Source: Chloroflexota bacterium (lineage in GTDB: Bacteria; Chloroflexota; UBA6077; SHYK01). From it: 44,904 nucleotides of DNA. Shown here piece after piece: positions 4,469 to 18,216 of this stretch; position 1 is the first letter of the stretch; each line of letters starts with the position of its first letter. The notes beneath the pieces are model-generated. The model saw only the letters and a list, made by a program, of their open reading frames with translations, was not told where the DNA came from and ran no database searches. The stretch spans positions 1 to 44,904 of the forward strand of contig DASRDP010000065.1 of assembly GCA_035652535.1 (NCBI GenBank), given 5' to 3'. The position numbers and the translations under genes are program-made.

Positions 4469-5170
4469 TCAGCGTGCCGCCGACTTTGGCGGCTCGGATG
4501 TGAGTCGGATTCCGAGGCCGCGCACGGTGATCAGCATGCCCACCGCGGCGGGGTCTCTCTCGACCTTTCGGCGGAGGCGATGCAGCGCCACGCGCAGTGA
4601 CTCGATCATACTCGGGTCCTGCGTCTCACATGCGTGTTGCAGGAGAACGAAGGTTGGAACAACGGAATCCGCGTTGAGCATCAGGCAGCGAAGGAGTCGG
4701 AACTCCGTCAGGCTGAGATTGAGCGGCGCGCCACTGCTACGGACCTCGTGGCGACGCTCGTCGAGCGTGAGCGGCCCGACCCGGATGACCGATTCGGCCT
4801 GGAGCGGAGCAGCGGCCGCCGTGCGGAGACGAGCGCGAATCCGTGCCAAGAGCTCGCGATAGCCGAACGGCTTGGTGACATAGTCATCAGCGCCGAGGTC
4901 CAGACCGAGGACCCTGTCCTCCTCAGCAGTGCGTCCGGTCAACAACAGAACGGGGACGCTGTGCGTGCGTCGAAGCTCACGGAGCAAGTCGAAGCCAGAT
5001 TCGACGCCGAGGTTCAGATCGAGCACGACGAGGTCTGGCGGGGCAGTCTGGATCTCGAGCATCGCCGAGCGCAGATCGTCGGCGCTGGCCACGGAGTAGC
5101 CCGCACGACGGAGCGCGTCGCCCAGGATGTCCACCAATTCAACGTCGTCGTCGACGAGGAGAATTCTCAC
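4469..5170 (-). CDS. OmpR/PhoB-family response regulator 1
   Basis: Cytoplasmic two-component response regulator, 233 residues. The receiver domain (about 1-120) keeps the acidic pair D7/D8, phosphoacceptor D51 (VVLDLNL), T78 and K100-P101 (YVTKPFGY). The C-terminal winged helix (about 130-225) has TEFRLLRCLMLNADSVVP and a recognition-helix region SLRVALHRLRRKVE. The start is a GTG whose GTGA overlaps the kinase stop, so translation is coupled to the upstream kinase gene. It is the last gene of the unit running from TadE at 10609. Its DNA-binding domain closely resembles that of the second regulator (15243-15950), so both may read the same operator. That shared target is inference. Confidence 0.93.
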   Translation of the reverse strand: MRILLVDDDVELVDILGDALRRAGYSVASADDLRSAMLEIQTAPPDLVVLDLNLGVESGFDLLRELRRTHSVPVLLLTGRTAEEDRVLGLDLGADDYVTKPFGYRELLARIRARLRTAAAAPLQAESVIRVGPLTLDERRHEVRSSGAPLNLSLTEFRLLRCLMLNADSVVPTFVLLQHACETQDPSMIESLRVALHRLRRKVERDPAAVGMLITVRGLGIRLTSEPPKSAAR

Positions 5171-6936
5171 GCGGCGGCGTCCGCCAGCGGGAGAGTGATC
5201 CAGAAGTGAGTTCCGCGGCGGGTCTCGGTGTCGAGTCCGACGTTGCCACCATGCGCCTCGATCGTGCTCTTTACGATGGCGAGGCCGAGGCCAGCGCCGG
5301 GAAGCTGGAGGGAATTGGAGCCGCGGAAGAAACGGGTAAAGACGTTGCCCCGCTCATCAACGGGTATGCCCGGGCCACGATCCTCGACCGTGATTCGGGC
5401 GAACCCATTGGCCGTGTCGACTCGGACGCACACAGGCTCACCGGCGGGTCCGTACGTGGACGCGTTGCTGAGAAGGTTGACGAGGGCCTGGACCACGTAC
5501 CGATTGTGGGCGCGAACGACGAGCCGCTCGTCGGCGACGTCGAAGTCGAGCCTTTGGTCGCGGCCCTCGAGGAGCGGGGCGACGGCATCCGCCGCTTCCG
5601 CGAGGATGGGCATCAGGAGGGTGGGGCGCGGTTTGATGACGAGCCGGCCCGACTGGATGTTCTCGGCGCTCAGCAAGTTGTCCATGAGCGTGTGGAGCCG
5701 GGTAGCCGTGCGTCGGCCAGCGCCTACCAGGTTCGCATATTCGCGAGCGCTCAGTTCGCCGGACTGTGTCGCCAGGATTTCGAGCACGTTCTCGACCACT
5801 GCGAGGGGCGCGCGAATTTCGTGGGCGACGAGCGCCATGTACTGCTCGCGCTGTCGGTTTGCGGTGTCCATCGCGGCAGAGGCGAGGCGCACGTCGATCG
5901 TGCCGCCAGCCAGCCGGACGTGTGCCTGCATGAGGTCAATCTCCCACGGCTCGTATCGATGCGCGTCGTCGTGGACGAGCAGGAGGACGTAAACGCGGTC
6001 GGTGGTGATGCGCCCTGCCACGAGAGTCAGGACCTGCGCACCGCATTCCAGCAACTCGGATGGCACCGTGGATGGTCGGTCGATGCTCGGAGCGATTTGG
6101 ACGCTGGCGCCGCGCCGCAGGTCGGCCAGTGTCTCGCCTGAGAGGATCGCGGCGACGTGCCAATCCTGCAGAGGGCAGCGCCCGCGGTGGATGGCCAGCA
6201 CGTCTACGGCCGCCGCCGCGCCGATGCTGCAAAGGGCGACGGCCTCGGCGCGATAGCGGTGGGCGGCCATTTGCGCGATGATTTCGGCGATTCGGCTTGG
6301 GTCCTGCTCGCCGGCGAGGCGAGCCGCGACGGCGGCCAGCTCCTCGGACCCGGCGATCCGCCCCGCCAGCTCGAGGCCGACGGCGTGGAGGCGCGCCGAG
6401 ATCTCGCGCTGCTCCTCCAGGCTCTTCTGGAGCGCCTCGCCGCGCTGGCGCGCGATCCGCGCATTGAAGGCCATGCTCTGGGTGGCGATGGCGGTGACGT
6501 TGAGGCCGAGATAGTTGAGGAGCAGGTCCGCTAGGGGCACTGCCGTGCGGGCGCCGAGCGCGTGCGCGAACGTGGCATAGGCGAAGGAGACGTAGAGGAG
6601 GTGCGCGACGGCCACCGAGGCGCGCTGGGACCGGCGGACCGAGACGGCCACGGCTCCGGTGTAATAGAGCCCAAGCATGACGCCCTGTTGGCGCGGGGCG
6701 AGCGTGTACGCTGCGCCGAAGCTGATCGCCGCAATGATCGGGAGGAGGAGCGAAGGTTTGCGCCAAATCAGCTCCGAGGTGAGCGCGACCGCACCAATGA
6801 GGCTGAACGCGCCAGCGAGCATGCCCTCCGACAGGAGCCATTCGCCGTAAATCAGAAGCGCGGCGGACACCACGAGCTCCATCACGGTATGGGACTGGGC
6901 GAACCGCTGGAGGGTCTGGTGAATTCGTGCGATCAT
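5167..6936 (-). CDS. Membrane sensor histidine kinase 1
   Basis: Partner kinase of the downstream regulator, 589 residues. Residues about 18-155 form roughly six hydrophobic segments with short loops, so there is no large external domain. A coiled-coil-like linker (about 160-185) and a GAF-like region (about 195-350) follow. Then comes the HisKA domain with phosphorylatable H372 (ALVAHEIRAPLAVVE), and an ATPase domain with N-box NLLSNASTYGP, G1 VEDRGPGIP and G2 GAGLGLAIVK. All catalytic boxes are intact. It lies 29 bp after the TadG/RCC1 gene and overlaps the regulator by 4 nt, and so is probably cotranscribed with the Tad genes from the operator near 10.7 kb. The signal sensed is unknown; a membrane or intracellular cue is likely from the topology. 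Confidence 0.92.
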   Translation of the reverse strand: MIARIHQTLQRFAQSHTVMELVVSAALLIYGEWLLSEGMLAGAFSLIGAVALTSELIWRKPSLLLPIIAAISFGAAYTLAPRQQGVMLGLYYTGAVAVSVRRSQRASVAVAHLLYVSFAYATFAHALGARTAVPLADLLLNYLGLNVTAIATQSMAFNARIARQRGEALQKSLEEQREISARLHAVGLELAGRIAGSEELAAVAARLAGEQDPSRIAEIIAQMAAHRYRAEAVALCSIGAAAAVDVLAIHRGRCPLQDWHVAAILSGETLADLRRGASVQIAPSIDRPSTVPSELLECGAQVLTLVAGRITTDRVYVLLLVHDDAHRYEPWEIDLMQAHVRLAGGTIDVRLASAAMDTANRQREQYMALVAHEIRAPLAVVENVLEILATQSGELSAREYANLVGAGRRTATRLHTLMDNLLSAENIQSGRLVIKPRPTLLMPILAEAADAVAPLLEGRDQRLDFDVADERLVVRAHNRYVVQALVNLLSNASTYGPAGEPVCVRVDTANGFARITVEDRGPGIPVDERGNVFTRFFRGSNSLQLPGAGLGLAIVKSTIEAHGGNVGLDTETRRGTHFWITLPLADAAA

Positions 6937-6965: not shown

Positions 6966-9512
6966 CTATTGACGCAGCTCTCCACGAATTTGCCCTGCAA
7001 TGCTGCGAAAAGCGTCGGAAAGATTGATGCTGGTGTCACCCTTCAGTAACGGGTAGTAGTGGTCGCAGCCAATTTTTGATGACGAGATGTGGATCAGCTC
7101 CCAGTCCACGGACATGGCGGACGCGGGGACTGTCGTCTCAAGGCCCTCGGCCGAAGTTCGGTTGGCGCAGTGGTGGGGCGTACCGGTGAGGCCGCTCGCG
7201 CCCGCTTTGAAGATCCCCACGGTGAAGATCTCCACATCGTCGCACGGGGGATTCGTGGTCTGGAGGCATGGCGACTCCTGCACGCCGTTGGCCCCCTTTT
7301 TTAAGCGGATGGCGTCCTGGATTGAGTTGAAGTCGGCGGGCCCGCAGTGCGTGATCAAGGCGTCGCACGTCTGGGTGTTTGGCGGTGCTCCCGGGTAGGT
7401 AAGGTTGTTCTGGCCGTCAGTCATCAGGATGAAGAACTTCTTCGCCTCGGGTCGGCCTCCGTTCGCGAAGATGTTCCAATCAGGAGTCCCTTCTTTGAAC
7501 ACAATGTCCACCGCTGCCCGGTGGTAGGTGCCGGAGCCGCCTACCGCGTCGAGGTAGCACATATAGGTGCCAGGTGGCTGGGCGGGCATGGTGAAACTTG
7601 GCTGGGGAGGCAGGGTCGGGCACGGCGGCACGGGCGCAGGGGTGGCCGCGGCCATCACGAGCTGGTTCCGATCGGCCGTGAGGGGGATGAGGACGTGCGA
7701 GTCTAGCGCGAGGCCGGTGCATGCCACGGCGAGCGTGTGGCCGCCGGCTGCCGTGCCGCCTGCGGAAGCCCAGGTGACGTTGACGACATCGTAGTTTGTG
7801 ACGGGTACGTGGTGCTCGGTGGGTACGTCGCCAGTGCCCAGCTCGCCGTGGGCGTTGCTCCCCCAGACCCAAAGCTGCTTGAAGTTGTCGACCGCGACGC
7901 TGTGAGAATAGCCGGCATAGACGCGCACGATCGCGTCTCCTGCAGGGATGACGAAGCTCACCTGGCGTGGGCTTCGGGAGCACGGGGTGGCCCCAACGGT
8001 GCACGGGGTTGCGTCCACCACGTCGTTGGTCCCGAGCTGGCCGTTGGCGTTGCTGCCCCAGGCCCAGACGGTTCCATCGCTGAGGACCGCGAGGCTGTGG
8101 TTGGCGCCGGCAGCAATGTGGATAACGTTCGCCGGAAAGTCGATCGCGGCGGGTGTAGGCACGTCGTTGTTATCCGTGCCGTTTCCGACCTGGCCGAAGG
8201 TGTTGTCGCCCCACGACCAGATTCGGCTGAGGTTGTTGCTCATGACGACCATGCTATGGTCTCTCCCGGCTGCGAGGAGGGGCAGGCCATCTGCGCCGGG
8301 CTGCGGATTCGTACTCCCGGGGAGCCCGGTGACGGCGGCGGGGGTGGTATGAGCGGATCCGTCCGTCGTGCCGAGGCCGAGCTGGCCGTGGGTGTTATCG
8401 CCCCACGCGTAGACACGCGTCGCGCCGGCTCCCGTGGAGGCAAGGCTGTGCGCCCGGCCCGCGGCGATGCCCGTGACGCTCACGCTGCTCAGCGGGGCCC
8501 CTGGGGTGGTCGGGGTGCCGTCGTCCGACGTGCCGTTCCGGCCGAGCTGGCCCCGGTCGTTCCTTCCCCACGTTTTGAGGTTCCCCGTTCCCGTCCCAAA
8601 GCGTGCCAGGTTGTGGTCTCCGCCCGCTGCGATTTGGCTCACGGTCGTGCTGGGGGAGATGGTCTGCTGGTTGTTGAAGAATGCTGTTGCCGACCCGTTC
8701 ACCTGGTGATGGTCGTTGAGTCCCCAGGCCCTCAGTTTGGGGGTGCCGGACGCAACGGCTGACAGGCTGTGGTTGCCGCCGGCGGATACTTTGACCGAGT
8801 TGGCTGGGTCCGATGTGACGGGCACCCAGCGGTCCGTCGTGCTTGAGTCGCCGATCTGACCGCTGGCGTTGTAGCCAAATGCCACCACGCCGGAAGAGGT
8901 TGCGCAATCTTCGCCCTGGAAGGCCGCGAGGGCGATCTTGTTGGTGATGGGGTTGCTGACGTTTAAGTTGAGGGCATCAACGAACGCAGCGACGGCAGCT
9001 CGCAGCTCTGGTAACGTACCCGGGTCTTCCGTCTGCATGCTTTGCGTAAGGTCCACGACGATCGCAATATCGTTGTCGCCGCGACCCGGTGCACCCACCG
9101 CGGATCGCTTGAGGGGAATGTTGTTGATGCCGACGATCCGCCAAAAGAGGGTGGGCTTGTTGCGCGTGACCTCGACCTTCATCGTGTCGAGCTGGCCGGT
9201 GTTGGGGTCGGTCGTTTCGGCATAGTGGATTACGTCGCCCTTGGCCGTGGAATACCCCTGGTTGTTGAGAAACGCCGTTGCCGTCGCCTCGCCAGATATG
9301 GCGCCGGGCGTTGGCGCGTAGAGCATCCCTCGCGCGCCCGCGAGCGCAGCCGTATCGATGGCGTTTTGGATGCTTTGCTCCTCGACGAGAATCGATCCGT
9401 AGTCGATGCCCGATCCCACGGCGAGGATGAGCATGAACACGGCGACGGTGAGGAGCACCATCATCTGCCCAGGGTGTCGGCGCCGTGCACGGAATCCCCA
9501 GGGGTTTTTCAT
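6966..9512 (-). CDS. TadG-like protein with a seven-repeat RCC1 propeller inserted in its vWA domain
   Basis: An 848-residue envelope protein. Residues 1-140 form a TadG/TadE-type N terminus: basic start, one hydrophobic segment (17-36), then QSIQNAIDTAALAGARG, the Tad signature. A von Willebrand A domain begins at 148 with the metal site DLTQS (154-158). It is interrupted from about residue 205 by seven RCC1-like repeats, seen as FGYNASGQIGD (212), WGLNDHHQVNG (263), WGRNDRGQLGR (315), WGDNTHGQLGL (370), WGDNTFGQVGN (434), WGSNANGQLGT (485) and WGSNAHGELGT (550). The vWA fold resumes near 597 (VLIPLTADRNQL) and carries MTDG (697-700). Several cysteines suggest disulphides outside the membrane. 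vWA domains bind ligands through a metal site; RCC1 propellers are protein-interaction platforms. An adhesin or pilus-tip-like role is inference. Confidence 0.88.
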   Translation of the reverse strand: MKNPWGFRARRRHPGQMMVLLTVAVFMLILAVGSGIDYGSILVEEQSIQNAIDTAALAGARGMLYAPTPGAISGEATATAFLNNQGYSTAKGDVIHYAETTDPNTGQLDTMKVEVTRNKPTLFWRIVGINNIPLKRSAVGAPGRGDNDIAIVVDLTQSMQTEDPGTLPELRAAVAAFVDALNLNVSNPITNKIALAAFQGEDCATSSGVVAFGYNASGQIGDSSTTDRWVPVTSDPANSVKVSAGGNHSLSAVASGTPKLRAWGLNDHHQVNGSATAFFNNQQTISPSTTVSQIAAGGDHNLARFGTGTGNLKTWGRNDRGQLGRNGTSDDGTPTTPGAPLSSVSVTGIAAGRAHSLASTGAGATRVYAWGDNTHGQLGLGTTDGSAHTTPAAVTGLPGSTNPQPGADGLPLLAAGRDHSMVVMSNNLSRIWSWGDNTFGQVGNGTDNNDVPTPAAIDFPANVIHIAAGANHSLAVLSDGTVWAWGSNANGQLGTNDVVDATPCTVGATPCSRSPRQVSFVIPAGDAIVRVYAGYSHSVAVDNFKQLWVWGSNAHGELGTGDVPTEHHVPVTNYDVVNVTWASAGGTAAGGHTLAVACTGLALDSHVLIPLTADRNQLVMAAATPAPVPPCPTLPPQPSFTMPAQPPGTYMCYLDAVGGSGTYHRAAVDIVFKEGTPDWNIFANGGRPEAKKFFILMTDGQNNLTYPGAPPNTQTCDALITHCGPADFNSIQDAIRLKKGANGVQESPCLQTTNPPCDDVEIFTVGIFKAGASGLTGTPHHCANRTSAEGLETTVPASAMSVDWELIHISSSKIGCDHYYPLLKGDTSINLSDAFRSIAGQIRGELRQ

Positions 9513-9548: not shown

Positions 9549-10082
9549 TCAGCCATTCGGAATCGCCGGCTCCGCCAGCATGTACATCGTGTAACTTGGC
9601 AAGCTCGTCGGGATCCCAACTTGAAACCGACCGGGGATGCCGAACACGTGCGGGAGGAAGATGTTCGGGCCTGCGTCGTAGGAGACCGTCACGCTGATCA
9701 CGTCGTTGCGCGCCGCAACGCGGATCGGCTGATTGGCTGCATCGACGCATCCTAGGATGGGGTCCACGGTCATGCATGGAGGGCAAATCTGGATGCCCTT
9801 TAGGCCAGGGTTCGGTATCCCGCTGGATGGGCACGTCGCCTTGGGCATCTGGGCAGCGGTCAGGTTCGATGGGATGCGAGCAACAATCTGGGCGATATTC
9901 GTGTCATCGGTGTTGTGTGGGTGCACGGCGACCCACCGCGCGGCGTCACGGGTGATGTTCAAGACACTCAGATACGTAAGAAAGAGGATTATGAGTTGGA
10001 GGAGCGCAAGGCCAAAAAACACGATAATGGGCAGCATCAGGGCGAACTCGACCAGTGCCTGGCCCCTTGACCTGACCCTCAT
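9549..10082 (-). CDS. TadE-like pseudopilin protein
   Basis: A 177-residue TadE-family protein. The short basic N terminus is followed by GQALVEFALMLP and one long hydrophobic segment (about 12-38), the processing and membrane region typical of TadE/TadF pseudopilins. A beta-rich extracellular part with cysteines follows (CPSSG, CPPC, C in the middle). Its ATG overlaps the stop of the upstream TadE-like gene by 4 nt, and 36 bp separate it from the TadG/RCC1 gene. In Tad systems these proteins are exported minor components of the Flp pilus; here no Flp pilin or Tad motor gene is present in the window. Confidence 0.88.
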   Translation of the reverse strand: MRVRSRGQALVEFALMLPIIVFFGLALLQLIILFLTYLSVLNITRDAARWVAVHPHNTDDTNIAQIVARIPSNLTAAQMPKATCPSSGIPNPGLKGIQICPPCMTVDPILGCVDAANQPIRVAARNDVISVTVSYDAGPNIFLPHVFGIPGRFQVGIPTSLPSYTMYMLAEPAIPNG

Positions 10083-10609
10083 TCCATCACCATCGAAGCG
10101 CTATAGGTGCGCGGGCCGGTGGGGATTCCGACGTGGAAGCTGCCGATGTTCGCGCCCGCGGGAAAGAAAATCACGCCCGATGCCTGGATGTCGTACGTGG
10201 CGGTGACCGTGATGGCGCCGCTTGGGGCACGCCCTGCGCACTTGGGAGGTATCGAGCTGTCCAGTGACGGGCAGGATGGATCGATTGAGAGCTGGATCAA
10301 CGACGGCCGGAGGGTGAGCGGGTTGCCGGAAGCATTGGCGACCGGTGTGCCCTGTGGGTTGACGAAGTTTTCCCCTCGCGCGTGATGGAGCGCGTTCGCG
10401 TCGACAGTGTCGCCCCAGTTCACGGCGAGCCACCGGGTCGTTTCGCGGGTCACGCGCATGAGGCTATATTGCTGTAGCGCGATTACGCCCATCTGGACTA
10501 CCGGTAGGAGCGTGAGCAGAAAGACCGTAATGACCAGGGCGAATTCGACGATCGCTTGACCGTTCGGTCGAACCCGCACCGCTAACCGGGACAAGACTGC
10601 TTGTGTCAA
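10079..10609 (-). CDS. TadE-like pseudopilin protein, first gene of its unit
   Basis: A 176-residue TadE-family protein with GQAIVEFALVITVF at residues 17-30, a transmembrane segment to about residue 45, then an extracellular domain with a CPSLDSSIPPKC pair. It resembles the next gene in length and layout (C-terminal GANIGSFHVGIP versus GPNIFLPHVFGIP), so the two look like an old tandem duplication. It is the first gene of the minus-strand unit that ends with the response regulator at 4469. The operator at 10661-10718 lies 51 nt upstream of its start codon. Confidence 0.87.
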   Translation of the reverse strand: MTQAVLSRLAVRVRPNGQAIVEFALVITVFLLTLLPVVQMGVIALQQYSLMRVTRETTRWLAVNWGDTVDANALHHARGENFVNPQGTPVANASGNPLTLRPSLIQLSIDPSCPSLDSSIPPKCAGRAPSGAITVTATYDIQASGVIFFPAGANIGSFHVGIPTGPRTYSASMVME

Positions 10610-10660
10610 CGGATCTCCGAATGGAAGGGATTTCCGCGCGGAAGATAGTCATATCCGCCA

Positions 10661-10718
10661 TTACCATGCTATTGTTTGCGCCTTACAGTTGCGTACATAA
10701 AGAACATTAGCTGTTACA
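10661..10718 (-). promoter_or_regulatory. TGTAA operator, site A
   Basis: Read on the minus strand: TGTAA (10718-10714), 16 bp, TGTA (10697-10694), 6 bp, TGTAA (10687-10683), 9 bp, AATAG (10673-10669), 5 bp, TAA (10663-10661). The spacing is identical to sites B, C and D. The 21- and 10-bp offsets are whole helical turns, as expected for OmpR/PhoB-family dimers bound in tandem on direct repeats. It lies upstream of the TadE-TadE-TadG/RCC1-kinase-regulator unit. The rest of the gap (10719-10897) is locally AT-richer, with nothing recognisable. Confidence 0.8.
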
Positions 10719-10897
10719 CTTCGTTTCACTGCCATCTTGGTGTTAAAGCCGACGACTTCATGAAGAACCCACGAAAAAACGGATGTAGTCAGCATAGAAG
10801 CGACAGAAGAGGGCAGCGCTAACGTGGCCAGATACCGAGAGGATTCGACGCGGACCGCGATTGCACCCGTCTCGATGGCATGAATCAGGCAGATTGG

Positions 10898-11203
10898 TTA
10901 GTCTGCCGCATCGGCGCCACTCGTTGAATTGTTCGTCTCTTCCATCACGGTGATGTGCGCCTTGTTTATCGAGACGAACGAGGTCCACATCGTCGATCCG
11001 TTGGGCTCGACAACGACAGCGTCGGTCACGGCGATGAACTGCTCGGTGTCGCGCTCGAGGAGGTCGAGCACACGTGTCCCCGGCACGAGATAGACGCTGC
11101 CGCGAATCTCCAGCCCGCTGTCGGTGCGAATCAGGGCGGGGTGAGGGACGCGGCGCGTGCGATCGAAGGACTGGGTCCCGATGCCGCGGTGGCTGAGGCT
11201 CAT
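10898..11203 (-). CDS. Small soluble protein of unknown function
   Basis: A 101-residue protein without a signal peptide or membrane segment. The core (about 30-88) reads as a compact beta-rich domain: RGSVYLVPGTRVLDLLERD, FIAVTDAVVVEPNG, FVSINKAHITVMEE. Short proteins with a 'VPGTRxxDLL ... F(I/L)AxTDA ... FVxxNxxHI' pattern occur in many bacteria as uncharacterised domains; I do not assign a function. Its ATG overlaps the stop of the upstream membrane-protein gene (ATGA), so the pair is a coupled two-gene unit behind operator site B. The acidic Ser/Thr-rich tail (NNSTSGADAAD) looks disordered. Confidence 0.65.
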   Translation of the reverse strand: MSLSHRGIGTQSFDRTRRVPHPALIRTDSGLEIRGSVYLVPGTRVLDLLERDTEQFIAVTDAVVVEPNGSTMWTSFVSINKAHITVMEETNNSTSGADAAD

Positions 11204-11697
11204 GTGGTCCAGGCTTGCCAGCGCGCGGTCAAGGTGGCGTGAGCGAATGCAGCGACGCGAATGAGGGCACTGACCGCGACAAATGAGATGCAGAAGACCA
11301 GGACGGTCGGAAAAACACAGATGAGCGCAACGGCAGCGAGTGGGAAGTCGGCATCCGCTGGCGCATTGAGCTCGGACACACTACTGATGCCCTCCGCGAG
11401 AGCGAGCGCGCTCATCGCCGCCGCGGCGCACGCGGAGATCGGTGTGGGATGGCGAAGCGCGAACGCGCGCCAGCCCCCGCCGAACCGTGCAAAAGCCAGA
11501 ATTCCGGTGACCAGGAAGACAGTCGCCATCGGCGACAGATCGGATGACCACGCCCAAATTCGTGCGACCACTTGGGACTCGGTCATGCACATGGCGAGCG
11601 CAAACGCAGCGGCTGCGAACGCCGCGACCCGCGGATGATGTCGCCGCCACGTCAGAATGCGTCTCAGCGCTGTTGCCGCGATGCGAAACATGCGCAA
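11200..11697 (-). CDS. Four-segment membrane protein of unknown function
   Basis: About 165 residues with four hydrophobic segments (approximately 24-40, 56-74, 86-105 and 119-148) and a basic cytoplasmic N terminus (RRILTWRRHHP). No known family is recognised. The TTG at 11697 or the ATG two codons later (11691) could be the start; neither has a good ribosome site. Operator site B ends only 19 nt upstream, so the mRNA leader must be very short or absent. It overlaps the next gene by 4 nt. Its size and topology mirror the membrane protein at 11801-12346; the two may be diverged duplicates. Confidence 0.65.
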   Translation of the reverse strand: MRMFRIAATALRRILTWRRHHPRVAAFAAAAFALAMCMTESQVVARIWAWSSDLSPMATVFLVTGILAFARFGGGWRAFALRHPTPISACAAAAMSALALAEGISSVSELNAPADADFPLAAVALICVFPTVLVFCISFVAVSALIRVAAFAHATLTARWQAWTT

Positions 11698-11716
11698 ACG
11701 GTATCGCGGGGGAGGG

Positions 11717-11774
11717 TGACACGTCCGTAAAGAACGGTTTACACGTGCGTACGTTTCGCGCTTTTGACGTTACA
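11717..11774 (-). promoter_or_regulatory. TGTAA operator, site B
   Basis: Minus strand: TGTAA (11774-11770), 16 bp, CGTA (11753-11750), 6 bp, TGTAA (11743-11739), 9 bp, TACGG (11729-11725), 5 bp, TCA (11719-11717). The spacing is the same as at sites A, C and D. It lies in the 103-bp gap between two membrane-protein genes, immediately upstream of the gene starting at 11697. Confidence 0.8.
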
Positions 11775-11800
11775 GTTGTGGGCCGGTGCGCCGCGGATGC

Positions 11801-12346
11801 CTACGAACGGGGGACGAAGCGGAGAACAGTCCATGCGCCGACAAATCCCACGGTAGCGGCGAGGAGCGCCGTGAGCGCGAGGGACGCTGCGGCGTTAATG
11901 GGATCCACCCCGTCAACGGACGTCTGACTGCCCGCGACGATCAATCCCGCGAGAGCCGAGCCTGCGAGGAGCGCGAGGTAGCCCGCGACCGCCGACGCGA
12001 GAACGGCCGGGTGACGTGTGGCCATAGACCGCCAGATGAGCCGAAGGCGAATGTACGCGACGGCGAACACGGCCATGTGTGCTGCCACGACGGGGGACGG
12101 GTCCGCCGGCCAATGCCAGAGCGCTGCCGCCGCGCGAGAGGTGATGGTCGACACGGCGATCGCGTAGGAGGCGCAGACAGCGGATGCTTGCCACCGGTGA
12201 CGAAGCTCCCGCTCGGAAAGGCGATGGGTCCAGCTATTGGGGACGGCGAGCACGGGGGCGTCTCCTTCAGCGTGGCGTTCGTGCTGCTGGCGCGTCTGTC
12301 GGCCAGTGATTGGGAGCACGGGGCGGGCGGGTTTGGTGCGGGCCAT
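11801..12346 (-). CDS. Membrane protein of unknown function
   Basis: 181 residues. The N-terminal 45 residues are polar and basic (cytoplasmic). About four hydrophobic segments follow (approximately 53-75, 84-100, 112-136 and 146-174). No family is recognised. Its ATG follows directly on the TGA of the upstream secreted protein (TGAATG), so it is translated in coupling with that gene and belongs to the unit beginning with TadE at 14933. The layout resembles 11200-11697, although sequence identity is not obvious by eye. Confidence 0.6.
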   Translation of the reverse strand: MARTKPARPVLPITGRQTRQQHERHAEGDAPVLAVPNSWTHRLSERELRHRWQASAVCASYAIAVSTITSRAAAALWHWPADPSPVVAAHMAVFAVAYIRLRLIWRSMATRHPAVLASAVAGYLALLAGSALAGLIVAGSQTSVDGVDPINAAASLALTALLAATVGFVGAWTVLRFVPRS

Positions 12347-12895
12347 TCACGCGGCGCAGTCCGATTCCGCCGAGACCAGGGCGAGGTTGGAGACGCCCAA
12401 TGAAACCGGGAAGACCATCACCACCTCCATGGTGTCGCCGGGCATGATCACCTCGTAGGGGTGCTGTACGCCGTAGTCGCGGGCGACGGTCAATAGGAGT
12501 TGTCGGTCTTGAGACATCGGATAGTGGCGCCCGAGATCGTCGACGAGGTCGATCGTCTCCGCCGGCAGTGCCACGATATGGGCCTGATTGGTGACGTCCA
12601 TGACGATTACCACCCACATGGACCCGGCCGGGGCTCCTCGGTCCACCACGGTCGCGAGCCACTCGGCCGATGCCACGCTCATGTGAAAACGGTTCTGGTC
12701 TCGACACGCATCCACCGTTTGATTCACGAGCGTCGAGCTTGGTGATCGCGTTTCGCCACTCCCAACAGGTTGACCACGGGCAGTGTCGGAAGCGCCTGCG
12801 ATTGCGACGCAGAGAATCGCAGCCAGTGCGCGCGCGCAAGGCCTCTGCGGATAGGGAACGTTCCCCTGTCGCAGGGATTGAATGGGCTTTGGCAA
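12347..12895 (-). CDS. Secreted protein with a DUF4352-like beta-sandwich domain
   Basis: 182 residues. An N-terminal hydrophobic stretch (ARALAAILCVAIAGASDTARG) reads as a signal peptide. The rest looks like the immunoglobulin-like fold of DUF4352-type proteins: GSMWVVIVMDVTNQ, DLVDDLGRHYPM, a YGVQHPYEVIMPGDTMEVV turn, and VFPVSLGVSNLALVSAE at the end. Two cysteines (C64, C180) could pair outside the membrane. The open frame begins with TTG right after the stop of the TadG-like gene; a GTG twelve codons further in is also possible. DUF4352 proteins are secreted or lipid-anchored with unknown partners. Placement between Tad genes and a membrane protein suggests an envelope role. Confidence 0.65.
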   Translation of the reverse strand: MPKPIQSLRQGNVPYPQRPCARALAAILCVAIAGASDTARGQPVGSGETRSPSSTLVNQTVDACRDQNRFHMSVASAEWLATVVDRGAPAGSMWVVIVMDVTNQAHIVALPAETIDLVDDLGRHYPMSQDRQLLLTVARDYGVQHPYEVIMPGDTMEVVMVFPVSLGVSNLALVSAESDCAA

Positions 12896-14053
12896 TCAGC
12901 TACTCAAGCGCACGATCAGCGGCCCGTTATCGCCGGGGTGAAACTCTGTGCCGGTCCCGCCCGACACAATGGCCGTCCCAACTAGATGCGCCTTCGTGCA
13001 GTTGGCGGCGGTGCATCCGGAAGGAGGTGATCCACCTGGCAAGAGCTGGAAAACCCCCCACGTAACGACGCACACATTGCGGGTCGGTGGCGCGCCATCG
13101 CGGGTGCAGTCATTGCCATGCGTTGGGTCGTTCGCATTCACCATAATCGGCAGAACGGTGAAACAGTTTCCTGCCTGCACCTCGGCGGAGTCGTGGCAGT
13201 TAGGCAATCCGGCAATCGTGGCACGGATGGGACCGGCGTGGTCTCCAGGCTGGTACTGCATCCAGCACGGGACCTCTGGATCGCAGTCCAAGTCGCCGTC
13301 GTCGCCTTTGAATGACGATCCCGCCCATCCGCAGCCACCATCGCTCTGGCCAACTTTGCTTCCGTGGACAACGAAAATGGGTGCCGTTGGCGTCGGCGCT
13401 GGTGGCGTCGCCGTGAGGTTAAAGATGACCTCAGGGCGAATCGACGGTGGGGTGTGAGAATAGTCCAGGAGCCCGCCGGGAAAGAACGTCAAGTCCTGCA
13501 TCAGGCCGTCCGCGCAAACCACGATCGGCGGATTGGTGCCTCCGGTCAGCACTTGGAGATTGGCCGTCGCCTGCGCATTGACGGTGAGGGTCGAAAAGCC
13601 GGGGACGAGCTTGACGAAGAACGTCGGAAACGTCTTGGTGACCATGACTTTGACACCGGTCGCCGATGCCTGTGATACAGCCGCCCCGGCGTTGTCGATG
13701 AAGCTCCACGACGTTGAAACGACGGTGGATCCGCTCGACGCGCCGGCGTTCGCCGTGGCGTTGGACGTGATATCGGTGTTGAAGTTGGGCGATGCGGGCG
13801 GGGTGCCCAACGATCGCGCCAGATCCGCCAGACCCGCCAGCGCTCCTGCGTCAGCGCCATTCTGCGCCGCCCGCCGCTGGGCCAGCATGTTTCCGCCGTC
13901 GATGGCAAGGCCGACCGCGGCCATGATGGGGATGAGCGAGAGAGCTGCCAGCACGAGAACCTGCGCGCGCCTCCGGGGTGGGCTCGGCGGTTTCCTCTGC
14001 GCACCTCTCCCGCTCGGTCCGATCCTTCCTACGCGGATAGCCGGTTGCATCAT
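12896..14053 (-). CDS. TadG-like (Tad domain) protein
   Basis: 385 residues. A basic Arg/Pro-rich N terminus is followed by one hydrophobic segment (AQVLVLAALSLIPIMAAVG, about 30-48) and the Tad signature GLAIDGGNMLAQRRAAQNGADAGALAGL. The large C-terminal part is probably extracellular, with many cysteines (CGW, CDPEVPCW, NCHD, NCTRD, NVCVV, CTAANC). No vWA metal motif is visible, unlike the TadG/RCC1 protein in the other unit. It starts 4 nt before the end of the upstream TadE-like gene (ATGA overlap). Tad-domain proteins are exported and anchored by the N-terminal segment; cargo or partner unknown. Confidence 0.82.
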   Translation of the reverse strand: MMQPAIRVGRIGPSGRGAQRKPPSPPRRRAQVLVLAALSLIPIMAAVGLAIDGGNMLAQRRAAQNGADAGALAGLADLARSLGTPPASPNFNTDITSNATANAGASSGSTVVSTSWSFIDNAGAAVSQASATGVKVMVTKTFPTFFVKLVPGFSTLTVNAQATANLQVLTGGTNPPIVVCADGLMQDLTFFPGGLLDYSHTPPSIRPEVIFNLTATPPAPTPTAPIFVVHGSKVGQSDGGCGWAGSSFKGDDGDLDCDPEVPCWMQYQPGDHAGPIRATIAGLPNCHDSAEVQAGNCFTVLPIMVNANDPTHGNDCTRDGAPPTRNVCVVTWGVFQLLPGGSPPSGCTAANCTKAHLVGTAIVSGGTGTEFHPGDNGPLIVRLSS

Positions 14054-14478
14054 TCGACGACCATCTCGGCGGAGCTGGTCAGTGTCAGGGTGCCCGGTAG
14101 CTTGATGAAGGCGACCGGCGCGTACGGGTAGCTCACCGTCACCTTGATGAGGTCACCGGCGGCGCGTGGCGTGGCGGTGGAAAAGGCGACAGGCGTCTGG
14201 TTGGCGACCGGCGTCGCGGAGTCCACCGAATAATTGGAGATCTGCACGACGGCGGTGGCCCCTGGGGCGATGATGACCTCCCGCACGCGGGCGGTGACCG
14301 TCGCGTCGTTCCTACCGGCGATGGCCCCGGTTCGCGCTCCCTCGCGCGCGGCGTTGGCGACGCTCGAGTACTCGAACATCAAGCGTCCCAGCTCGAATAC
14401 GCCGTAGAGCAGCACGAAGAACGCGCTCCCGACGATGGCAAACTCCACCATGGCCTGGGCTAACGTCAATCGCGTCAT
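14050..14478 (-). CDS. TadE-like pseudopilin protein
   Basis: 142 residues from the ATG at 14478, which overlaps the preceding TadE-like stop by 4 nt. The N terminus MTRLTLAQAMVEFAIVGSAF matches the TadE pattern (Q-x-M-V-E-F-A), then a transmembrane segment to about residue 30, then NAAREGARTGAIAG, the helix common to TadE proteins. The C-terminal half is beta-rich (LIKVTVSYPYAPV). An upstream-extended reading frame exists but lacks homology and covers the neighbouring gene. Confidence 0.87.
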   Translation of the reverse strand: MTRLTLAQAMVEFAIVGSAFFVLLYGVFELGRLMFEYSSVANAAREGARTGAIAGRNDATVTARVREVIIAPGATAVVQISNYSVDSATPVANQTPVAFSTATPRAAGDLIKVTVSYPYAPVAFIKLPGTLTLTSSAEMVVE

Positions 14479-14933
14479 AGCATCTGCATGGTGGCTGAGC
14501 GGGTGAAGTGCTCCGTGCTCCCCAACACGGCCTTGACCATCGGTGTGAAGAAATTGACGTCGTAGGTCACCGAAACGGTGACTTGCTGCTGAGAAGCCGG
14601 CGTGGTTGGAGAAATGGTGATATTTCCGTCGGGGATCGAGAGCCCTGGAGCCGCCCGCTTCACTGTGGCTTTCACACTCGGCGTGAAGCTGGCTGAACTC
14701 GAATCGGCGGTGATGGCGTAGCGAGCGCCCTCGCGGGCCGCGTTGCGGACGGTCACGTCGTAGTAGAAGAAGCGGCCGATATCTACCGTCGCGGACAGGA
14801 CGAGCACGAGCGGGATCCCGATGAACGCGAACTCCACGAGCGATTGGCCGCCCTTGCGTCCAATCGTTCGGCAGCCGCCGCGCAGGGCAGCGTCGAGTCG
14901 GCGAATTGTCATCGAATGACACCCGTCCACCAC
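14475..14933 (-). CDS. TadE-like pseudopilin protein, first gene of its unit
   Basis: 152 residues. GGQSLVEFAFIGIPLVLVL (about 28-46) is the TadE membrane signature, followed by VTVRNAAREGARYAI and a beta-rich exported domain. The GTG at 14933 has GGGAGAA seven bases upstream; the ATG at 14912 lacks a ribosome site, so the GTG is preferred. It is the first gene of the unit 14933 to 11801 (TadE, TadE, TadG, secreted protein, membrane protein), and operator site C lies 99 nt upstream. Confidence 0.87.
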   Translation of the reverse strand: MVDGCHSMTIRRLDAALRGGCRTIGRKGGQSLVEFAFIGIPLVLVLSATVDIGRFFYYDVTVRNAAREGARYAITADSSSASFTPSVKATVKRAAPGLSIPDGNITISPTTPASQQQVTVSVTYDVNFFTPMVKAVLGSTEHFTRSATMQML

Positions 14934-15032
14934 GGTTCTCCCGGCGAGGATCCCTCGCGACCTGTGCCCGGTGCACCCGCGCCCTTCGCCGGGTGCAGCG
15001 TGGTTCTTCCTAAACGACAGGTTACGGGCGTA

Positions 15033-15090
15033 TGACCGAACCGTTGCCAGCTCTTTACAGTCCCGTACATCTCGGGATCGCGGCGTTACA
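15033..15090 (-). promoter_or_regulatory. TGTAA operator, site C
   Basis: Minus strand: TGTAA (15090-15086), 16 bp, TGTA (15069-15066), 6 bp, TGTAA (15059-15055), 9 bp, AACGG (15045-15041), 5 bp, TCA (15035-15033). It sits in the 309-bp gap between the second response regulator gene and the TadE gene at 14933. Nothing else recognisable is in that gap. Confidence 0.82.
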
Positions 15091-15242
15091 TTTCGATGAC
15101 AGAGCCGTATTGATTCGCGGAAGCAGCGTTCATGACGAGAAATCGGTCGGGATCACTGACAGGCGCCGCATCTTGGGCTCCGTGGCCGGTCGTCGATTGG
15201 TCCGGCGCGGCAGGCGCGCGGGCAACCGTGCACAGCCCCGGG

Positions 15243-15950
15243 CTACGCCTCCTCGGCGGATGGGTCGGCGCTGAGGCGAATCCCCACACCGGTGACCGTG
15301 AGGAGGAGCTTCGGGTTCGCCGGGTCGTCCTCGATCTTTCGCCGAAGCCGGTGGAGGGTCACGCGGAGGACGTCGGCCGCGCCCGGGTCCGTCTCGCCCC
15401 AGATCTGTTGCAGCAAGGTCCGCGTTGGCACCACGGCGTCCGCGTTGAGCATGAGGTACCGGAGGAGGCGGAACTCTGTGACCGTGATGTCCAAGGGGCG
15501 GCCGTCCTTGCGCACCTCGTGGCGACGCGCATCGAGCACGAGGGGCCCAACCTCCAGCACTTCCGCTGCCGGCGCTGGCTCCGGCGTCGTGAGGCCGCGC
15601 GTGCGCAGGCGCGACCGGATACGCGCCAGCAGCTCGCGATAGCCGAAGGGCTTGGTGAGATAGTCGTCCGCGCCGAGATCGAGCCCGAGCACCTTGTCAT
15701 CCTCGGACGTCCGAGCGGTGAGCAGCACGACCGGCAGGTCGGACGTCCGTCGCAGCTCCTTCAGGATGTCAAAGCCGGACGTTCCGCTCAGGTTCACGTC
15801 GAGCACGACGAGGTCCGGGGGATTCTCGCGAATCTGCCTGTACGTCGACGCCGCGTCCACCGCCTGGCTGACCGAGTAGCCGGCCCGGCGCAGGGCGCCA
15901 TCCAAGATGTCGAGCAGATCCCGATCGTCGTCGACGAGGAGAATGCGCAT
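15243..15950 (-). CDS. OmpR/PhoB-family response regulator 2
   Basis: 235 residues. The receiver domain has D7/D8, phosphoacceptor D51 (VVLDVNLSG), T78 and K100-P101 (YLTKPFGY). The winged-helix domain has TEFRLLRYLMLNADAVVPTRTLLQ and the recognition region DVLRVTLHRLRRKIE, closely matching regulator 1. Its ATG overlaps the kinase TGA by one base (TGATG). It is the natural candidate, with regulator 1, to bind the TGTAA operators around it, including site D upstream of its own operon. The family is certain; the target assignment is inference. Confidence 0.94.
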   Translation of the reverse strand: MRILLVDDDRDLLDILDGALRRAGYSVSQAVDAASTYRQIRENPPDLVVLDVNLSGTSGFDILKELRRTSDLPVVLLTARTSEDDKVLGLDLGADDYLTKPFGYRELLARIRSRLRTRGLTTPEPAPAAEVLEVGPLVLDARRHEVRKDGRPLDITVTEFRLLRYLMLNADAVVPTRTLLQQIWGETDPGAADVLRVTLHRLRRKIEDDPANPKLLLTVTGVGIRLSADPSAEEA

Positions 15951-17830
15951 CAGCCGGCGTCACTGACCGGCAGGGTGAACCAGAAGCGGCTCCCAACGCC
16001 GAGCTGAGTCTCGAATCCGACCGTTCCTCCGTGCGCCTCGACCACGGCCTTCACAATGGAGAGTCCCAGCCCGACACCCGGCTGCTGACCCGAGCTGGAT
16101 GCGCGATAGAAGCGCTGGTAGAGTCCCGCCCACTCTTCGGGCGGGATCCCGGGCCCCGTGTCCTCGACGCTCATGCGAATAAACCCCGTCGCGAACTGAT
16201 CTGCTCGAACGCGAATCACGCCGCCGACCGGCCCATAGGTGGATGCGTTGATCAGCAGGTTGGTCAGCGCCTGAACGATATAGCGTGAGTGCGCCATGAC
16301 GAACACGCGCACGCTCGGCAGCTCCGTCTCGATCCGTTGATTTCGTCCTTCCACGAGGAGGGACACGCTGTCGATCGCCTCGGCGACGATCGCCGCGAGG
16401 GCTGTCCGGCGCGGGGACACGACGAATCGGCCGGACTCGACGTTGCCCGCGCTCAGGAAGTTGTCCATCAACGTATGGAGCCGCATGCTCGTGCGCCGCG
16501 CGGTACTGACGACTTCGTCGAACTCCTTGGTGCTCAGGTCGCTGGCCTCGGTGGCCAGAATCTCGAGCGCGCCTTCGAGGACGGCGAGGGGCTCCCGAAG
16601 CTCGTGGGCCACGTAGTACACGAGCTGCTCCTTGAAGCCGCTTGCCTCCACCACGTCGTGGAACTGGGCGTGGAGTCTGAGCCGGGCCTGCTCCAGCTCG
16701 GTCGCGACTGGGGCGAGCTCGGCGTCGGCGATCTGGGGCACGGGCGTGTCCATGTCGCCCTGGCGCATTCGGCCGGCTGCTGCCGCGAGCGCCATCGCCG
16801 GCGCGGACTCTCGGGTCCGCCACACGTGCAGGATCGCCGTGCGAAGAACGGCGAAGACGATGAGAATCGGGATCGCGAGGATGATGATTCTTCGCGGCTC
16901 GCTCGCGTCGCTGACTGCACTGAGGGCCAGAGTGGCCACGGGCGTGCCGTCGATGCCAACGAGGGGTGCGAAGAGCGCCCGGACGTGGCCGCCCGGCGTC
17001 TCGCGGTCGGCATACGCCGTCTGGCTCGCCGCTGTTTCCGGGGCCCCGCCGAGCGGGTCGGCGCTTCCGATTCCCGTTCGGATCCCGCGCTGATCGGACA
17101 TGGTGGAGAGGAGCAGCTCGCCTCCGACGTAGAGGCTGGCGTCGAGGCCCGTGCGCTGGCGAATGGCGTCCAGACCCGGGGCGTCCAGGTGCGAGACGAG
17201 CGCGAGCACGGCGACGAGGTTACCGCCCTCCCGTTCGACCTTGGGCACGAACGCGACAATCGCGGGGAACCGACCGGAGCAGAGAACCAGACCAGCCGTC
17301 TCGTGGCCGGCGGCGAGGGAAGTGAAGCCTGGCAGCTCGCGCATATGCTGCTGATCGGTGCAGCGATGGTCGGCGGAGCGTTGGGCCAGCACCGCCCCGG
17401 AGGGGTCAGAGACGACGATGTTGTCAACACGGGGAGCGACCCGCAGGGCGCCAAGTTCGCGCGCCAGCGCGAGCGGATCGGCCGAGATCAGCGCCGCGTC
17501 GAGGCTGGCATCGTCGGCGAGGAGGTATCCGAGCGCGACCAGCTCCCCGCGCGTCTCGTCGATCTCCGCTTGAAGGAGACTCGCTTCGCCGGCGAGCCGC
17601 GCGTCGATCTCTTGCTGGATGTGCTGCTGGAACACCCAGGTCGTTGGGAAGAGAATGACGGTCACCACTGCGCCGATCTCAATGATATGGAGCGCAAACG
17701 ATCGCGCGATGGCCCAGCGTCGGCGCCAGAGGATTGCGAGTTGGCCGATGTTCAGCAGAGGCTGGCGCACGATAGGCGATTCCTCGGAGCGAGCGCGGGC
17801 CAGGGGCACCCGTTGCGTCCCCGCAGCCAT
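15950..17830 (-). CDS. Sensor histidine kinase 2 with a large extracytoplasmic sensor domain
   Basis: 626 residues. A basic N terminus precedes membrane segment 1 (about 43-68). An external domain of about 245 residues follows (69-312), with the look of a double Cache/PAS-like sensor (DNIVVSDPSGAVLAQRS, then FPAIVAFVPKV). Membrane segment 2 (about 313-336) leads to a HAMP-like linker, a HisKA domain with H409 (YYVAHELREPLAVLE), and an ATPase domain with N-box NLLINASTYGP, VEDTGPGIP and GVGLGLSIVK. From the H-box on it resembles kinase 1, while the input halves are unrelated, so the two kinases probably read different cues into similar regulators. The external ligand is unknown. Confidence 0.93.
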   Translation of the reverse strand: MAAGTQRVPLARARSEESPIVRQPLLNIGQLAILWRRRWAIARSFALHIIEIGAVVTVILFPTTWVFQQHIQQEIDARLAGEASLLQAEIDETRGELVALGYLLADDASLDAALISADPLALARELGALRVAPRVDNIVVSDPSGAVLAQRSADHRCTDQQHMRELPGFTSLAAGHETAGLVLCSGRFPAIVAFVPKVEREGGNLVAVLALVSHLDAPGLDAIRQRTGLDASLYVGGELLLSTMSDQRGIRTGIGSADPLGGAPETAASQTAYADRETPGGHVRALFAPLVGIDGTPVATLALSAVSDASEPRRIIILAIPILIVFAVLRTAILHVWRTRESAPAMALAAAAGRMRQGDMDTPVPQIADAELAPVATELEQARLRLHAQFHDVVEASGFKEQLVYYVAHELREPLAVLEGALEILATEASDLSTKEFDEVVSTARRTSMRLHTLMDNFLSAGNVESGRFVVSPRRTALAAIVAEAIDSVSLLVEGRNQRIETELPSVRVFVMAHSRYIVQALTNLLINASTYGPVGGVIRVRADQFATGFIRMSVEDTGPGIPPEEWAGLYQRFYRASSSGQQPGVGLGLSIVKAVVEAHGGTVGFETQLGVGSRFWFTLPVSDAG

Positions 17831-18070
17831 ACGCTACGCTTCCAGCACGCCGCGCAGCATTCCAGATCGCCGCGCGCTTCCTTGCTGCGTCCAGCGAACA
17901 GCTCCCGGCCAGTAGCCGGCCGCGCGCACAGTGCGGCGGAAAGGCCCGGATTCGACTCCGCGGTGTCTACACGGGCGCGTACGGCCAAACAGGGCAGAAG
18001 GGCGATCTACGCCAAGAACGTGTGTGGTCGAAACGCTCGACAACTCGGCCGAAGATATACGAGCCCGGCA

Positions 18071-18128
18071 TGACGCGGCCGTTGAAATGTGATTACAGAC
18101 CCGAACATTGACGGAATTGTGCATTACA
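18071..18128 (-). promoter_or_regulatory. TGTAA operator, site D
   Basis: Minus strand: TGTAA (18128-18124), 16 bp, TGTT (18107-18104), 6 bp, TGTAA (18097-18093), 9 bp, AACGG (18083-18079), 5 bp, TCA (18073-18071). It lies in the 386-bp gap upstream of kinase 2, suggesting autoregulation of the kinase/regulator pair. The leader to the ATG at 17830 would be over 200 nt; 17831-18070 shows no other gene. A further CGTAA (minus strand) lies just outside the site at 18139-18135. Confidence 0.8.
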
Positions 18129-18216
18129 GAATCGTTACGTTGCATCCATCTTGGCCGGGGCACGGTGATCGTGATTCGCGCGTGGTCCTGACGCGCGCCC
18201 AACCCGGCCCCGGACT

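Follow-up and report, generated by a model that had tools for sequence, protein, structure and literature searches.

A conserved, probable operator-promoter in front of every unit of an accessory TadE/TadG and two-component island in a Chloroflexota bacterium

Many genes of WalR regulons have functions at the cell surface. Half-sites of WalR/VicR regulators follow TGTWAH-N5-TGTWAH at an 11-bp pitch, and known VicR sites include some whose half-sites are set wider apart by one helical turn (N15, N17; PMC4168254). MtrA of actinomycetes uses GTnAC-type half-sites at 11-bp pitch (PMC5650626), GlnR boxes read GTnAC-n6-GTnAC with a further half-site possible after a 16-bp spacer (PMC10704036), and the PhoB dimer covers or overlaps the -35 region (PMC3348028). 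In Pectobacterium, an OmpR-type two-component system activates flp/tad genes (PMC3767616). Here we analyse a repeated element in a 44,904-nt stretch of a Chloroflexota bacterium (assembly GCA_035652535.1, contig DASRDP010000065.1; the whole stretch is called the window). Four copies, S1 to S4, lie in an island encoding TadE/TadG-like proteins and two two-component systems, histidine kinase HK1 with response regulator RR1 and HK2 with RR2. The element is real and conserved and very probably an operator-promoter; the regulon is new and small, and its mechanism would be of a known kind. Among the papers available to our search, none describes this element.

A first-pass annotation had placed four minus-strand elements with identical spacing at 10661-10718, 11717-11774, 15033-15090 and 18071-18128, and all four are present. 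The pattern TGTAA-N16-NGTN-N6-TGTAA matches four times in the window, compared with a shuffle mean of 0.21 even when two mismatches are allowed. Throughout the 4.45-Mb genome it matches exactly four times, always in the window and on the minus strand, while its reversed control gave no match in the same genome. With a stricter pattern and up to three mismatches, S1-S4 match at zero, nothing else in the genome matches at one or two, and the matches at three are at chance level. These window shuffles and genome-wide searches rule out chance occurrence of the four elements. When S1-S4 were compared pairwise, identity was 75-86% at motif columns and 21-35%, a background level, at the remaining columns. 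Because the columns outside the motif are so dissimilar, the copies are not recent duplicates.

Alignment of 12 sites, relatives included, revealed six TGTAACG-like half-sites that make up three dimer boxes. A sequence-only model was built from these 12 sites, and its expectation values (E) are used below. The half-sites start approximately 82, 71, 50, 40, 28 and 18 bp upstream of the -10 hexamer and pair as direct repeats at 10-11 bp pitch on the same helix face (-82/-71, -50/-40 and -28/-18 relative to the -10), which bears out the proposed helically phased operator of OmpR/PhoB type. Information peaks at the six half-sites and at TAnnnT (T in 12/12, A in 11/12, T in 12/12). With approximate spacers, the consensus reads TGTAAC-N5-TGTAACG-N14-TGTACG-N4-TGTAAC-N6-TGTAACGG-N3-TGTNACG-N11-TAnnnT, TGTAACGG-N3-TGTNACG being the third pair of half-sites. 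In 11 of the 12 sites, S3 being the exception, a TAnnnT -10 lies 17-19 bp past the start of the final half-site, and the same arrangement of -10 and box is seen in genome G284, outside the 12-site set. There is no consensus at the -35 position; an activator box stands there, at a fixed distance to the -10. Measured between its upstream half-site and the -10, the element is about 77-88 bp long, with up to six half-sites in each of S1-S4 (S2 lacks the most upstream one and S1 has a poor copy of it). The "triple repeat" over 58 bp in the first-pass annotation was thus correct as to the repeats and too small in their number and extent. Its suggestion that downstream WACGG and TCA positions form the core promoter did not survive, as in relatives these positions are a complete third half-site pair with TAnnnT downstream.

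Both RR1 and RR2 match PF00072 and PF00486 (receiver and winged-helix Trans_reg_C domains), and they are 64% identical. Their recognition helices are near-identical, as had been pointed out from the sequence (DVLRVTLHRLRRKIE in RR2, ESLRVALHRLRRKVE in RR1), and RR1 is without the usual WG motif ahead of this helix. The helix core (V/L)RV(T/A)(V/L)HRLRRK is common to most RR2-like regulators. The top NCBIfam models for RR2 are MtrA (197 bits, cut-off 300), YycF (191.8 bits, cut-off 340), RpaB and PhoB (177.8 bits, cut-off 296.2). RR2 is thereby predicted to work like these regulators, yet it can be assigned to none of them since it scores under every cut-off.

The element shares with WalR/VicR (YycF) sites the half-site, the 11-bp direct repeat and an OmpR-family regulator, but differs in that as many as three dimer boxes stand at set distances from the -10 and an extra CG follows the half-site. 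Likeness to MtrA and GlnR lies in GTnAC half-sites at 11-bp pitch, whereas the helix core here is RVT-HRLRRK instead of NVHVQRLRAK and the three-dimer layout is fixed. As at the E. coli pho box, direct repeats replace the -35 and the regulator has a full receiver and winged helix; however, half-site sequence, box number and regulon are different. An OmpR-type system also adjoins Tad genes in Pectobacterium, although the target in that case is the core tad cluster, while here the sites precede accessory TadE/TadG operons.

The 14 minus-strand genes of the island fall into exactly four units with one site in front of each, so the claim that every unit starts behind an element holds, including for the HK2-RR2 operon (behind S4). 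The other units are TadE-TadE-TadG with two small genes (S3), a predicted membrane protein with a DUF6812 protein (S2) and TadE-TadE-TadG(RCC1)-HK1-RR1 (S1). A complete Tad/Flp locus would have Flp pilin, CpaB, TadA, TadB and TadC together, and the island has only TadE/TadG types. Since the TadA, TadB and TadC matches of this genome sit together on contig C110, the island holds accessory TadE/TadG genes and does not amount to a complete Tad locus. Beside the C110 matches are Flp-like, CpaB-like and CpaE-like genes (named by sequence without a family search), and no element was detected within a 10-kb stretch of this core locus at E up to 5. The accessory genes would be regulated apart from the core Tad locus.

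Relatives have the element too, in most cases beside the gene of the orthologous regulator. Two checks proposed with the first-pass annotation, a genome-wide search for the pattern outside the island and conservation in related genomes, came out in its favour, and its core idea is right. In G010, which belongs to the same order and another family, the pattern matches exactly; the repeats are clearer there, and a TATGGT hexamer stands in register. In G027, G010, G005, G015 and G011, and weakly in G001, a weight matrix built from S1-S4 and a G010 site located the element a short way behind the RR2-like gene. Scores at the RR2-like loci of relatives were 20-45, compared with a maximum of 8.5 in shuffled window sequence. 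When 29 genomes of the class were scanned with the 12-site model, only seven had E below 1e-4, and these are the same seven that carry an RR2-like regulator (E 1e-75 or better to RR2; chance 6e-7). In the corresponding scan of 400 genomes of the phylum, no further genome reached E 1e-4. The site-associated regulators of relatives are 54-61% identical to RR2 and 48-53% to RR1.

Nine genomes outside the class have RR2-like regulators, and the loci of eight (all except G321) were inspected. Two of the eight, G284 and G137, support the link between element and regulator. In G284, half-sites at -11, 0, 42 and 53 are followed by TAAGGT at 70, approximately 400 bp downstream of the RR2-like gene and in front of an exported-protein gene. 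Directly behind the RR2-like gene of G137 lies a partial site (E 0.00067), which precedes an exported protein and has no -10 in register. Other candidates were rejected. Bare TGTAA pattern matches in G048, G049, G060 and G026 are near the control level and the rest of the element is missing; in G217 and G123 the three-half-site pattern fits, the other half-sites are missing and the matches are below the control count. The G004 site was not counted; it has two partial boxes, which fit the opposite strand best.

The genes around the element in relatives follow a common layout: a kinase gene comes first, a regulator gene second and the operator third, and behind it lies either an exported protein or another kinase-regulator pair. 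RR2, S3 and TadE/TadG in the window match this layout, S3 lying directly downstream of RR2 in the position kept in relatives. Secreted proteins, judged from N-terminal sequence and not by a signal-peptide program, are found right behind the element in G010 (C80 and C36), G001 (C31 and C398), G284 and G137. In G027 it is followed by a cyclic-nucleotide-binding protein and a large secreted S8-protease-like protein, in G010 C34 by a cyclic-nucleotide-binding protein and a regulator, in G005, G015 and G011 by a second kinase-regulator pair, and in G011 C153 by a regulator gene. Looking for a regulator-adjacent operator before an exported-protein gene could serve as a recipe for targets of this regulator family. 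It should also be noted that the cyclic-nucleotide-binding proteins behind the operator in two families (L046:5991-6503 in G027, L052:8405-8869 in G010) are stand-alone proteins. A weak site in G011 (C403; L097:1116-1178, plus strand) lies between a regulator gene and genes for a UDP-glucose/GDP-mannose dehydrogenase and a glycosyltransferase, so surface polysaccharide may be among the targets. In both G001 sites (L072:1762-1846 and L094:1451-1532) the second box is altered in the same way, to TTGAACGTGTTTTCAA, and the recognition helix of the G001 C31 regulator is changed to VRMAIHRLRRK; possibly, regulator helix and operator co-vary in this genome.

We consider it probable that each element is a promoter of the sigma70 type at which a regulator of the OmpR/PhoB family, most likely RR2 in its phosphorylated form, acts as activator. 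Three head-to-tail regulator dimers would occupy the TGTAACG-like half-sites on one helix face, with the promoter-proximal dimer covering the place of the -35 and helping RNA polymerase to the TAnnnT -10 about 18 bp downstream. The operator next to RR2 would drive the exported-protein operon (here TadE/TadE/TadG), as the layout in several relatives suggests, and further copies would serve HK2-RR2, the operon ending in HK1-RR1 and the small membrane-protein unit. Because copies head HK2-RR2 itself and the operon that ends in HK1-RR1, activation would be self-reinforcing, with autoregulation via S4 and a second loop via HK1-RR1 in the S1 unit. The sequences show that the elements are present, exclusive to the island, constant in spacing, conserved and associated with the regulator; from this we infer that RR2, RR1 or both bind them, that the effect is activation, that it depends on phosphorylation and that an autoregulatory loop exists. 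This provides a testable regulon and promoter model for a lineage whose response-regulator targets are probably unmapped.

Several observations weigh against this proposal. The sites of the window are more degenerate than those of relatives, and the -10 of S3 (TGTCGT) is imperfect. The class scan is partly circular, as most model sites were first found near RR2-like genes; the sites that were not found through RR2 loci are G010a, G010c and the new sites G001:C398 and G011:C153. Furthermore, six genomes outside the class with an RR2-like gene (the five inspected of family f56, including G153, and G040) have no site near the gene and none at E 1e-4 genome-wide. Since these six have the regulator and no element, the association between the two is not obligatory. 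By eye, the RR2-like gene of the five f56 genomes (L112, L113, L114, L115 and L116) is followed by two conserved tRNA-like genes.

The identity of the regulator invites an alternative, that RR1 is the main ligand, or that both bind and RR2 has other targets. RR1 has nearly the same helix, its gene closes the S1 unit, and the Ala at its single differing core position is also present in the G137 regulator, which has an adjacent site. We nevertheless regard this as rather unlikely, given that the site-associated regulators of relatives are nearer RR2, that the regulator-then-operator layout corresponds to RR2-S3, and that the WG motif is missing from RR1. We propose only tentatively that the two paralogous systems, HK1-RR1 and HK2-RR2, recognise a common three-dimer operator, before their own and the surface-protein operons. 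If so, two sensory inputs would meet on one promoter type, and nested positive feedback could give switch-like deployment of accessory TadE/TadG structures independent of the core Tad machine.

Activation by a response regulator has also to be set against other readings of the promoter itself. TGTAAC with CGT or TCA 15-17 bp later superficially resembles promoters of extracytoplasmic function (ECF) sigma factors, and the first-pass annotation had offered TGTAA as an ECF-type -35; in this reading GTA/TCA would be the -10. This is very improbable for a six-fold tandem repeat that ends in a TAnnnT -10 in 11 of the 12 aligned sites: the supposed ECF -10 is itself a half-site, no sigma-factor gene was found among the island genes (Pfam matches), and occurrence of the element tracks a response regulator. 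Repression instead of activation appears unlikely, although the proximal box overlaps the -35 position and repression is known for some targets of WalR-type regulators and MtrA (PMC4168254, PMC5650626). Without a consensus -35 the promoters look activator-dependent, and a box-to--10 distance that is fixed across distant genomes fits polymerase contact better than mere obstruction. To a recent duplication or a functionless repeat, which the shared orientation and spacing within 7.5 kb might suggest, we give practically no credence; apart from the background identity outside the motif, the elements always lie just in front of units and are kept in other genera and families.

Positions of the sites and of the island genes are listed in Table 1.

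Table 1. Sites S1-S4 and island genes, in window coordinates (minus-strand parts of sites are given in reading direction)
Feature	Position	Strand	Remarks
S4, operator-promoter of HK2-RR2	18052..18139	-	model E 6.6e-12
S4 box 1	18139-18123	-	CGTAACGATTCTGTAAT
S4 box 2	18107-18093	-	TGTTCGGGTCTGTAA
S4 box 3	18086-18070	-	TTCAACGGCCGCGTCAT
S4 -10	18057-18052	-	TATCTT
S3, operator-promoter of TadE-TadE-TadG operon	15014..15101	-	E 1.2e-13, best in own genome
S3 boxes 1, 2, 3	15101-15085; 15069-15055; 15048-15032	-	
S3 -10-like	15019-15014	-	TGTCGT
S2	11698..11774	-	model E 2.3e-12
S2 single upstream half-site; box 2; box 3	11774-11769; 11753-11739; 11732-11716	-	
S2 -10	11703-11698	-	TACCGT
S1, operator-promoter of TadE-TadE-TadG(RCC1)-HK1-RR1	10642..10729	-	model E 2.8e-10
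S1 weak box 1; box 2; degenerate box 3	10729-10713; 10697-10683; 10676-10660	-	
S1 -10	10647-10642	-	TATCTT
HK2, sensor histidine kinase	15950..17830	-	dCache_3-like sensor (weak), HisKA, HATPase_c
RR2, OmpR/PhoB-family response regulator	15243..15950	-	Response_reg + Trans_reg_C; helix DVLRVTLHRLRRKIE
Two overlapping TadE-like genes, start of S3 unit	14475-14933, 14050-14490	-	Pfam
TadG-like protein, S3 unit	12896..14053	-	Pfam
Two genes, end of S3 unit	11801-12346, 12347-12895	-	no Pfam match
Predicted membrane protein, first gene of S2 unit	11200..11691	-	hydrophobic sequence; no Pfam match
DUF6812 protein, S2 unit	10898..11203	-	Pfam
TadE-like pseudopilin, first gene of S1 unit	10079..10609	-	Pfam
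TadE-like pseudopilin, S1 unit	9549..10082	-	Pfam
TadG-like protein, S1 unit	6966..9512	-	Pfam
HK1, sensor histidine kinase	5167..6936	-	37% identical to HK2
RR1, paralogous response regulator, last gene of S1 unit	4469..5170	-	helix ESLRVALHRLRRKVE

At S2, the ATG at 11691 starts 6 nt past the -10, so this transcript is likely leaderless. The -10 of S1 is followed by GGAG and a TTG start at 10609, and about 220 nt (17834-18060, minus strand) separate the -10 of S4 from the ATG of HK2. An open frame in this stretch ends just before HK2 and may represent a leader peptide or regulatory leader.

Elsewhere in the genome, a weaker candidate for a fifth site was noted where a gene for a GT87 glycosyltransferase begins (contig C143:16109-16171, minus strand). 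It reads TGTACAG..CGTAAT..AGTAATAG..TGTAAT, then TATCTT, and is unproven at E 0.007 genome-wide. A role for it in driving the TadA-like ATPase of C143 is not supported, since the GT87 gene comes next and approximately 1.6 kb lie between GT87 and the ATPase. Finally, in the TadG-like protein of the S1 unit, an RCC1-repeat domain sits between the Tad N-terminus and the vWA-like end.

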